IMG/VR virus record: IMGVR_UViG_3300015360_000241
Span: 1 to 20,333 of that record
DNA from: a virus
Reading direction: 5' to 3' (one strand)
Length of the DNA stretch: 20,333 nucleotides
How positions within the stretch are numbered: position 1 is the stretch's first letter; each line of letters starts with the position of its first letter. A model generated the notes under the pieces. The model saw nothing but the letters and a program-made list of their open reading frames with translations, searched no databases and had not been told where the DNA came from. Made by a program: the position numbers and the translations under genes. Of the stretch, positions 15,857 to 20,287 are shown piece after piece.

Positions 15857-16987
15857 ATGGGCAACCTCTTAAGGATTCCGCAGTACCCTGATTATTATTA
15901 TGACCCACACTCAGGAATGATCTATGTCAGGTTTTGGGTGAATGGTGCGAGAAAAACTAGAAGCACGGGTATTCGAGGAAGCCTCCCTGCTTTAGTGGCT
16001 GAAATAAAACAGGCCGTATCATCTGGGCGTAAGATAATTTCTGGTTATGATTCCGAAAAAGAATCGATGACAAAATTTGGGATACTCGTTCAAGACTGGC
16101 AGCCTAAATGGATTGAATCATTAGAAACAAGTTGGAAATCTAAAGCATCTAGAGCGGATGCAAAGTCTCGATGGAAAGTTCACTTATCAAAGTTCTTCTT
16201 TGTTTATAAAGACAGGCCATTAGATGTTCGAGAGATCAATGAGGGCCTTTGGCTTGAGTATGCGGCTTGGTTTCAAAAGAAAAACCCAGGGCGTATGCTT
16301 AAGCACCATAGAGCCTACTTGAGACATTTCCTTTATTTTATGCATGAGCAAAGAGACCGAAAAACAGGTGAGCGTTTATTATCCATAGTGCCTGAGCTTA
16401 AGGATTACGACCCAGCAACGGAGTCGCCAGGAAGGTCAATTGAGCTTAAAGAAGAAAGTAATCTTTTAGATTCATGTAATACTCCACAACAAAGGCTCCA
16501 AATTCTCATGGGCATTTATATGGGCATGAGGCCTGGTGAGGTGTGTACTTGTCAAAAGAAGTTCATTAACTGGGATTCTAAAGAGATCGATCTCCCCTCA
16601 ACATTTGTGAAAACTGGGCGAGTTAAAAAACGCGGAAGGTCAGTACCCATTCATCCTAAAGTTGAAAAAGAGCTTAAGGCTCAATTTGATAGTCACACTT
16701 ATGAGCCACTATTTCCTTCGCCTAAGGATCCAACCAAGGCAATCGGTAGAGATGGGAATAAGAAAGCATGGGCCAGGATTAAGCGTGACGCTGGTATAGT
16801 TGGAAGATTACGCCGCCATGACATGAGAGTGACAAGGGCGACAAGGTTCGCTGAGCAAGGAGTATCTGAGCAATTATCTCAAGATGTTTTAGGTATGAGT
16901 AAAGAAGTCATGGATCGACACTATACAAAGTTTAAAGCCGAGGGACGTAAAAAAGTTTATCAGGCAGAACGTCGAGGCAAGAAATGA
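15857..16987 (+). CDS. int: Tyrosine site-specific recombinase (phage integrase)
   Basis: 376-aa integrase. The N-terminal part (residues 1-60, YPDYYYDPHSGMIYVRFWVN) is an arm-type DNA-binding domain, residues about 70-175 form the SAM-like core-binding domain and residues about 195-370 the catalytic domain. Active-site residues seen are Arg in IYMGMRPGEV, the Lys of the beta-hairpin region near FVKTGRVKKRGRSVPIH, H-x-x-R in RRHDMRVTRAT and Tyr in DRHYTKFK. The usual LGH-S His is Met here (LGMSKEV), an uncommon change seen in some members. The gene ends 12 bp before the paired TGGTCGAA repeats of attP. It should integrate the phage at a host tRNA gene. Confidence 0.92.
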   Translation: MGNLLRIPQYPDYYYDPHSGMIYVRFWVNGARKTRSTGIRGSLPALVAEIKQAVSSGRKIISGYDSEKESMTKFGILVQDWQPKWIESLETSWKSKASRADAKSRWKVHLSKFFFVYKDRPLDVREINEGLWLEYAAWFQKKNPGRMLKHHRAYLRHFLYFMHEQRDRKTGERLLSIVPELKDYDPATESPGRSIELKEESNLLDSCNTPQQRLQILMGIYMGMRPGEVCTCQKKFINWDSKEIDLPSTFVKTGRVKKRGRSVPIHPKVEKELKAQFDSHTYEPLFPSPKDPTKAIGRDGNKKAWARIKRDAGIVGRLRRHDMRVTRATRFAEQGVSEQLSQDVLGMSKEVMDRHYTKFKAEGRKKVYQAERRGKK

Positions 16988-16999
16988 CATTGCGCGCTG

Positions 17000-17018
17000 T
17001 GGTCGAAACGTGGTCGAA
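17000..17018. promoter_or_regulatory. Left pair of putative integrase arm sites
   Basis: Two direct copies of TGGTCGAA at 17000-17007 and 17011-17018 (11-bp period), directly after the integrase gene and about 60 bp left of the tRNA-like core. The same heptamer TGGTCGA appears as a pair on the other side of the core, so arm-type Int binding sites are the simplest reading. Confidence 0.6.
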
Positions 17019-17071
17019 CGTGCTTACTTTAAAAGTTAACGTACTAGATTTAATAATGAATTTAAAATACA

Positions 17072-17125
17072 AGCCACAGTCTTTGAATCTGAGGGTCACA
17101 GGTTCGACTCCTGTCGGCCGCACCA
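17072..17125 (+). other. attP core: 3' part of a tRNA gene (possibly tRNA-Gln, anticodon TTG)
   Basis: The segment carries a complete T arm (ACAGG-TTCGACT-CCTGT, 17098-17114), the 3' acceptor strand CGGCCGC (17115-17121), discriminator A and an encoded CCA (17123-17125). Before the T arm, a five-base variable region and a CTTTGAA anticodon-like loop (17081-17087) are in place, giving anticodon TTG. To the left the pairing breaks down and there is no D arm or 5' acceptor strand, so this is not a full tRNA gene. A phage-borne tRNA 3' end next to int restores the host tRNA after integration. The tRNA identity is tentative. Confidence 0.78.
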
Positions 17126-17230
17126 TAAAAGTACCTATAGAATTAAACACTTACATGCTTTCTGTGAATTTGTCTCGGAACTTCAATGTTTTGATTAGCT
17201 CGATTGAGCCCAACGTAGGGCAATGCCTAC

Positions 17231-17250
17231 TGGTCGAATTTGTGGTCGAG
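17231..17250. promoter_or_regulatory. Right pair of putative integrase arm sites
   Basis: TGGTCGAA at 17231-17238 and TGGTCGAG at 17243-17250 (12-bp period), about 105 bp right of the core CCA. Same heptamer and orientation as the left pair. Having both arms indicates an intact attP. Confidence 0.6.
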
Positions 17251-17369
17251 TGTTTCATCGATCCGATCAGGATATTTAGAGCCTCAGATGTCGCGACCAA
17301 CTTAAGTCGCATGCAGTTATCGGAACAATCTTTAAATTCTAAAGCACTTAAATTTCAAAAGCAAAACTT

Positions 17370-17402
17370 AAAAAAAGAGCCCGCCTTAACTGCAGACGGG
17401 CT
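17370..17402 (-). terminator. Strong leftward intrinsic terminator
   Basis: Read on the - strand: AGCCCGTC, loop TGCAGTTAA, GGCGGGCT, then C and seven Ts. The stem is 8 bp with one G-U pair in the - strand RNA, where the + strand RNA would have a C-A mismatch and no T-run. So it acts leftward. No leftward gene lies to its right in the window, implying either an antisense or regulatory RNA made near the origin or insulation of attP/int from leftward transcription. Confidence 0.75.
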
Positions 17403-17430
17403 AACTCAATCGGTATTGGGAATAAATCAG

Positions 17431-17506
17431 TGGACAATAGCCAATCAAACGCCTACTATCGTCCCACAAATAGTATCGCTACAGACAGACAGACAAGACA
17501 GACAGA
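17431..17506. repeat. Ori-like element, copy 1 (non-coding)
   Basis: 76-bp block starting TGGACAATAGCCAA, with inner inverted repeat TACTAT-CGTCCCACAA-ATAGTA (17454-17475) and ending in GACA/GACAAGACAGACA runs. It is the near-identical partner of the block at 17837-17932 inside the replication gene. Its frame relative to the gene copy differs, so conservation is at the DNA level. Confidence 0.75.
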
Positions 17507-17544
17507 TTAAACGGATAAAGGCAACCGAAATATTAGGGGGAGTT

Positions 17545-18279
17545 GTGGATAATTTAATTAAAATAAGCGTTCCAAATTGGGAGAAATTCAACCCAAGAAA
17601 TGATCGAACCAATCATGTTTGGTTCAGATTTCAAAATAAGTTTTTTTCAGATCAAAGAGTGTTTCCATTAACAGGTGAACAACAACGTCTTTTGATTTTC
17701 ATTTATTGTCTAAGATCAGAAAAGTGTAAAGAGTATGTTGAGCTAAGCCTTTCATATACCTCTGCAATTTTGAAACGTAAGCCAAAAGAGATTCATGCGG
17801 ATCTTCAACAACTTTTTGATTCAGAATTACTTGCGGTGGACAATAGCCAACCAAATGCCAACCATCGTCCCACAAATGGTATCGCTACAGACAGACAGAC
17901 AGACAAGACAGACAAGACAGACAAGACAGACAGGGGCGCGCGCGCCACCTTGCCTACCTTAGCCACAATTTGGAATAAACATTCAGGAGAGTTGCCAAAA
18001 GTAATAGAATGCGGTAGCAATCGAAAGATTTCAGCTAAGGCTAGATGGCGGGAGAAGCCAGACCCAGAGTATTGGGTTACTATTATTAAAAAACTAACTA
18101 ATTCAAAGTTTTGTAAAGGCGACAATGAAAGGGTTTGGATAGCTGATTTTGATTTTTTAATTAAACCTGAAACCCACATAAAAGCCATGGAAGGAAAATA
18201 CGACGATAAAAAATCCAAGCATGCAAAAACCGGAATAGACCTCTGGGCTGAAAAGAATGTGGTTGAAAATGGAGCGTAG
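17545..18279 (+). CDS. Phage replication initiator (O-like)
   Basis: 244 aa from GTG 17545, chosen because AGGGGGAG (17535-17542) lies just before it and homology begins there; the frame is open back to 16984 only through attP. Residues 1-95 (VPNWEKFNPRNDRTNHVWFR ... VFPLTGEQQRLLIFIYCLRS) are a winged-helix DNA-binding domain typical of phage replisome organisers. Residues about 98-135 are a polar linker with TDK repeats encoded by ori-like DNA. Residues 135-244 (LATIWNKHSGELPKV ... YWVTIIKKLTNSKFCKG ... VWIADFDFLIKPETHIKAME, EGKY) match the C-terminal module shared by many phage initiators. As in lambda O, the origin probably lies in the linker-coding DNA. The last 23 nt overlap the next gene. 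Confidence 0.8.
   Translation: MDNLIKISVPNWEKFNPRNDRTNHVWFRFQNKFFSDQRVFPLTGEQQRLLIFIYCLRSEKCKEYVELSLSYTSAILKRKPKEIHADLQQLFDSELLAVDNSQPNANHRPTNGIATDRQTDKTDKTDKTDRGARATLPTLATIWNKHSGELPKVIECGSNRKISAKARWREKPDPEYWVTIIKKLTNSKFCKGDNERVWIADFDFLIKPETHIKAMEGKYDDKKSKHAKTGIDLWAEKNVVENGA
17837..17937. repeat. Ori-like element, copy 2, with 9-bp tandem repeats
   Basis: Starts TGGACAATAGCCAA, contains ACCAT-CGTCCCACAA-ATGGT (17862-17881) and continues into tandem 9-bp ACAGACAAG units (about three full copies, 17893-17937, within a GACAGACA-rich tract). It differs from copy 1 at about five positions in the first 55 bp. The unit length of 9 keeps the reading frame and yields repeated Thr-Asp-Lys. It is followed by GGGGCGCGCGCG. 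Confidence 0.78.
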
Positions 18280-19748: not shown

Positions 19749-20024
19749 ATGGCTAGTGTAAATAAAAACCCATTCAAAGTAGGTGAAAAATATTTCATTC
19801 GTACTGCGACTTATTTTCATCTAGGAAGATTAAAAGATATTTCCGGTAAATGGCTTATTTTAGAAGAGGCTTGCTGGATTGCAGACACCGGGCGTTTTCA
19901 TGATTTTCTTAAAGAAGGTAAATGCAATGAATACGAGGCCTTTGTTGAAGATGTTTTCATCTCTCTTGATTCTGTAATTGATATTACAAAATGGAGTCAT
20001 GAACTATTTAAAGGCCAAAAATGA
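19749..20024 (+). CDS. Hypothetical protein (91 aa), partner of the repeat gene
   Basis: 91-aa protein with a strong Shine-Dalgarno (AAAGGAG, 19736-19742). The sequence VGEKYFIRTATYFHLGRLKD, then ISGKWLILEEACWIADTGRF and HDFLKEGKCNEYEAF, is a compact beta-rich fold. I recall similar (FIRT..TY...GR....LVLE.AAWIADTGRF) proteins in phages of other bacteria, also sitting just before a low-complexity repeat gene; that memory is unverified here. No catalytic motif is evident. It ends in ATGA overlapping the repeat gene start, implying coupled translation. Function unknown. Confidence 0.68.
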   Translation: MASVNKNPFKVGEKYFIRTATYFHLGRLKDISGKWLILEEACWIADTGRFHDFLKEGKCNEYEAFVEDVFISLDSVIDITKWSHELFKGQK

Positions 20025-20287
20025 GACACTTCCTTAAGAATATTTCATATTATTGGAGCAGGAGCGGGAGCAGGAGCGGGAGCAGGAGCAGGAGCGGGAG
20101 CAGGAGCTGGAGCGGGAGTAGGAGCTGGAGCGGGACCAGGAGCTGGAGCAGGAGCGGGAGCAGGAGCAGGAGCAGGAGCAGGGGCTGGAGCAGGAGCGGG
20201 AGCTGGAGCGGGAGCTGGAGCGGGAGCAGGAGTGGGAGCTGGAGCGGGAGTAGGAGCTGGAGCGGGAGCTGGAGCGGGAGCGTATAA
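20021..20287 (+). CDS. Low-complexity Ser-(Arg/Gly/Trp) repeat protein
   Basis: 88-aa ORF starting in the ATGA overlap with the preceding gene. After a short N-terminus (MRHFLKNISYYW) it is an almost perfect alternation of Ser with Arg, Gly or Trp, encoded by 38 hexanucleotide units (GGAGCN). The other two frames would give Gly-Ala repeats (no start codon before them) or Glu-Gln-Glu-Arg repeats (closed by TAG codons), so this frame is favoured by its start site. The protein is probably disordered; it might bind nucleic acid through Arg and Trp or be a surface adhesive. Coding status is moderately secure; function unknown. Confidence 0.55.
   Translation: MRHFLKNISYYWSRSGSRSGSRSRSGSRSWSGSRSWSGTRSWSRSGSRSRSRSRGWSRSGSWSGSWSGSRSGSWSGSRSWSGSWSGSV
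20055..20282 (+). repeat. Hexanucleotide tandem repeat, 38 units of GGAGCN
   Basis: 38 uninterrupted 6-bp units. The last base of the unit is A, G or T and never C. Only five units depart at other positions (GTA at units 11 and 33, GTG at unit 30, ACCA at unit 14, GGGGCT at unit 22). Such a tract is prone to copy-number change by strand slippage. Confidence 0.9.

Follow-up and report, generated by a model that had tools for sequence, protein, structure and literature searches.

A repeat block found upstream of and within a phage replication initiator gene points to a probable linker origin with a possible second initiator site

We describe here a 66-bp block that occurs twice at the replication initiator gene of a temperate phage, once shortly before the gene and once in the DNA encoding the linker of the protein, within a window of 20,333 bp (the whole stretch of DNA that was analysed). 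Judging from the sequence, the initiator probably binds both sites, the linker copy being the replication origin and the upstream copy serving either in autoregulation or in pairing with the origin. The features on which this argument is built are the following:

17378–17402, minus strand: intrinsic terminator acting on leftward transcription, to the left of copy 1.
17430–17495, plus strand: first copy of the repeat block (copy 1), at about −115 to −50 relative to the start codon of the initiator gene.
17431–17459, plus strand: sigma-70-like promoter candidate TGGACA-17-TACTAT (9/12 match), overlapping copy 1.
17455–17474, no strand: inverted repeat ACTAT-CGTCCCACAA-ATAGT of copy 1, proposed initiator-dimer site.
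17481–17506, plus strand: short ACAGACAAG tandem tract, rich in purines, that follows copy 1.
17544–17552, minus strand: perfect DnaA box TTATCCACA that overlaps the start codon of the initiator gene and is followed by AT-rich TTTAATTAAAATAA.
17545–18279, plus strand: gene for a predicted replication initiator / DnaD-like helicase loader of 244 aa, starting with GTG.
17836–17901, plus strand: second copy of the block (copy 2), within the DNA that encodes the linker.
17861–17880, no strand: inverted repeat ACCAT-CGTCCCACAA-ATGGT of copy 2.
17887–17933, plus strand: longer ACAGACAAG tandem tract, rich in purines, that follows copy 2, five copies of 9 nt.
17962–18231, plus strand: conserved C-terminal domain common to phage initiators.

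The gene is predicted to encode a phage replication initiator or helicase-loading protein, since residues ~106–230 match the DnaD-like helicase loader phrog_10469 (4.6e-22), phrog_19658 and the O-like phrog_345. The N-terminal ~100 residues have no meaningful match in Pfam or PHROGs, and AlphaFold, given the single sequence, returned no usable model (pLDDT 34) and no structural support for the N-terminal domain. The start codon is most likely the GTG at 17545, which lies behind AGGGGGAG. Upstream of it the initiator's frame stays free of stops for 187 codons (16984–17544), spanning the probable attP, and this open frame has no coding bias; copy 1 would thus be upstream DNA and copy 2 linker-coding DNA. 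As for the attP, a sequence resembling the 3' end of a tRNA lies directly after the integrase gene (17083–17126) and is flanked by GTGGTCGA motifs at 16999–17017 and 17229–17249, three exact motifs being present against 0.34 expected; together they probably form an attP core with integrase arm sites. The tRNA-like attachment sequence, a potential clue to the host, has no exact match in GTDB contigs. At the end of the record, 20021–20287 is an open reading frame of Ser/Arg/Gly/Trp repeats, with ~38 copies of a GGAGCA-type hexamer.

The block at 17430–17495 recurs at 17836–17901 in the same orientation, at an offset of 406 bp and with five differences. Over 64 nt the two blocks share 92% identity, and their edges are sharp. 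The longer segments 17430–17518 and 17836–17924 are 84% identical over 89 nt; the motif ACNATCGTCCCACAAATNGT, with three mismatches allowed, occurs exactly twice in the 20,333 bp and in none of 100 shuffles. Common to both copies is a 20-bp inverted repeat, ACYAT-CGTCCCACAA-ATRGT. Over 17430–17493, copies 1 and 2 differ at 17445 (T/C), 17450 (C/T), 17454 (T/A), 17457 (T/C) and 17472 (A/G), and 17457 and 17472 are a mirrored pair of the stem, T-A in copy 1 and C-G in copy 2, so that pairing is preserved. Five random substitutions would produce any such compensatory pair with P ~0.008, and one with all five pairs kept with P ~0.005. A sixth, outer pair, T17454–A17475, is present in copy 1 only and broken in copy 2. 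A competing inverted repeat of copy 1, GTGGACAATAG with CTATCGTCCCAC, is weakened in copy 2, and the compensation is therefore specific to the central palindrome. Searches of IMG/VR, GTDB genome contigs, phages and plasmids turned up no close relative of the window's initiator, and the evidence for covariation is therefore this single pair change; the only other genome with the palindrome pattern (L007) was rejected as a relative, as it looks like an unrelated phage region. The offset of 406 equals 1 modulo 3, which puts the copies in different reading frames, and four of the five differences alter an amino acid in the frame of copy 2; thus, the shared unit is the DNA.

These results bear out most of what the first-pass annotation had read from the letters: a duplicated block with its second copy in the linker DNA of the initiator, stems ACTAT/ATAGT and ACCAT/ATGGT around one loop, a single compensatory T-A to C-G change, conservation of DNA across different frames, and tandem tracts after both copies. 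The same high identity and sharp edges, together with slippage-prone tracts that invite recombination, could also have come from a recent accidental duplication of the linker segment, which would leave the upstream copy without a function. We consider such an accident quite unlikely, given the compensatory pair among the five changes and the fact that an upstream copy recurs in other phages (the GGACGACC genomes and L054/L057, discussed below).

The annotation had called the element a single-stem hairpin or palindrome; of these, the hairpin is poorly supported. Folded as DNA, the bare stems reach −1.2 and −2.3 kcal/mol and the whole blocks do no better than shuffles, which makes a double-stranded site for a protein dimer likelier than a hairpin. 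An RNA-level element, in which the inverted repeat forms an mRNA hairpin controlling initiator translation, seems to us very improbable: although copy 1 possibly lies in a 5' leader and shuffled sequences fold slightly less well than the isolated stems, these stems are weak (−2.0 and −2.9 kcal/mol), the full blocks do not outdo shuffles (z −0.37 and +2.1), and copy 2 sits within the coding region. In an Rfam search no family reached the threshold, with minus-strand matches to VrrA and suhB falling far below it.

The place of copy 2 can be judged against the wider family of initiators. The comparison covered 73 non-redundant genes that encode the C-terminal domain of this initiator, drawn from IMG/VR and from named phages (the window's included, with start codons assigned by rule). 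Direct repeats within the 180 nt before the C-terminal domain scored z>3 in 60/73 genes, against 5/73 for the N-terminal DNA, 11/73 for the C-terminal domain and 0/72 for downstream DNA. Purine-rich stretches on the coding strand (at least 80% over 40 nt) were present in 38/73 linkers, versus 11/73, 6/73 and 6/72 in the control regions. On visual inspection, the iterons are short and specific to a clade, and a purine-rich tandem tract typically comes after them. L017 and L016 have C-terminal domains that are 87% alike, N-terminal domains that are 37% alike, and different iterons; such a swap, with the C-terminal domain kept, ties the iterons to the N-terminal domain. In the initiator of L002:5275-6369, AACCCTTTCGAAA-type repeats form two clusters, one of them within the N-terminal part.

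Repeats in the linker are thus the rule in this family, which makes copy 2 look like a lambda O-type origin built into the initiator gene. In lambda, the origin within gene O holds 19-bp inverted-repeat iterons that are bound by initiator dimers and adjoin a strand-asymmetric purine region (PMC5043065). The proposed origin in the initiator gene, the inverted repeat and the purine-rich tract would be their counterparts here; the window's leftward terminator left of copy 1 is likewise comparable to lambda pO/oop, the leftward transcript unit adjoining O (PMC3985674). The lambda origin differs in its four iterons and its A+T-rich region, the window having one palindrome per copy and a tract of ~50% GC; the second copy upstream of the gene is a further difference. 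An origin-like element in linker-coding DNA, the core of the first-pass proposal, is well supported by the PHROG matches and by the family-wide repeats, and its analogy with lambda O is apt.

Three points speak against a linker origin: (i) each copy carries one palindrome and at most one related half site, GGACAATAG, in place of the usual several side-by-side iterons; (ii) copy 2 lies in some of the window's most stable DNA, and its surroundings are not AT-rich; (iii) AT-rich DNA and a perfect DnaA box adjoin copy 1 instead. It is possible, if rather unlikely, that copy 1 is the replication origin and copy 2 an accessory site for looping or handcuffing. Palindrome, tract, DnaA box and AT-rich unwinding region would then all fall within 140 bp (17430–17575); the box at 17544–17552 is the only perfect one in the window, and 17500–17600 belongs to its less stable tenth to fifth. 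However, the family-conserved place of iterons and tandem tract is the linker, most family members have no visible upstream copy, and DnaA boxes occur near the gene start in only 5/73 genes. Directly 3' of the copy 2 tract we also observed an alternating GCGCGCGCGCC (17936–17946), among the window's most stable DNA.

The upstream copy is rare in the family and yet recurrent in one group of gut phages. With a score cut-off of at least 13, an upstream match to the linker site was found in 9 of 70 genes, against 0/70 in downstream DNA, and an upstream copy as a family-wide feature was rejected, as it is confined to a minority. The strongest upstream-linker pair is that of the window itself and most others come from the Roseburia phage Shimadzu clade; the match in L040 is probably due to a mis-assigned start codon. 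In this clade (the Shimadzu initiator, VUE37452.1, and its IMG/VR relatives L012–L016, L079, L093 and L054/L057) the upstream copy is present in all ten close relatives by N-terminal domain: eight have sites of the GGACGACC type, and two (L054, L057) of the GGTAGAAATC type. Sites of either type match only within their own type, and we take the clade to represent one or two independent cases rather than ten. In the GGACGACC genomes the upstream copy lies at about −22 to −90. In L054/L057 it is near −155, and the GGTAGAAATC-type site there is nearly identical in its upstream and linker places; the more distant L089, L090 and L017 have no upstream copy. The initiators of L054:756-1919 and L057 also have an apparent HNH-type Cys-rich insertion (DYCRYCGKKV...VVTCRECSSKW) between N-terminal domain and linker. 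The clade shares with the window a related C-terminal domain and the layout of a linker site with a copy upstream of the start codon in the same orientation, ~410–475 bp apart in GGACGACC members. Unlike the window's palindrome, its sites are direct GGACGACC or GGTAGAAATC repeats of unrelated sequence, and no homology was detected between its N-terminal domain and that of the window's initiator. Of a two-site form that the first-pass annotation did not recognise, the linker part is therefore a known form, and the additional upstream copy is unusual, though recurring in the Shimadzu clade.

Two sites, one of them within the initiator gene, are also found in Bacillus phage SPP1, whose gp38 has one binding region, oriL, inside gene 38 and another, oriR, at a different place (PMC6316719). 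This precedent, and the presence of palindrome and tract in the same orientation in both copies, would suit a pair of equal origins or an origin with a fork-stalling site. To us such an arrangement appears improbable: the present copies lie 406 bp apart and the SPP1 sites about 13 kb; the tract of copy 1 is the shorter; and the upstream site of the GGACGACC clade is without the linker-type tandem tract. The match to SPP1 is one of sequence layout only, and the SPP1 sites have direct repeats with an AT-rich element.

With the linker copy as origin, the reading that we prefer, a dimer of the initiator's N-terminal domain would read the inverted repeat as double-stranded DNA. The linker copy and its purine-rich tandem tract would constitute a lambda O-like replication origin bound by the initiator, the tract opening or taking in the helicase, and the C-terminal domain would recruit the replicative helicase. 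At the upstream copy, 406 bp away and shortly before the start codon, the initiator may respond to its own level through repression of a promoter that overlaps copy 1, through pairing with the origin copy, or through both. The candidate for that promoter belongs to a class of matches no more frequent in the window than expected by chance, and its −10 element is lost in copy 2. Autoregulated initiators are also found in iteron plasmids, where the initiator has sites at the origin as well as in front of its gene, the origin usually being outside the gene. A broader and more tentative proposal is that some phage initiator families keep matched pairs of sites, one before the gene and one in the linker ~400–475 bp away, that evolve in concert, and that pairing of the two, through looping or handcuffing, stops both the synthesis of the initiator and the firing of the origin.

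The two-site view offers a testable account of how a phage initiator might tie its expression to the firing of its origin. In most members of this large and little-studied family of initiators, origin-like repeats in the linker DNA can be read from the sequence, which would allow origins to be predicted in many metagenomic phages.
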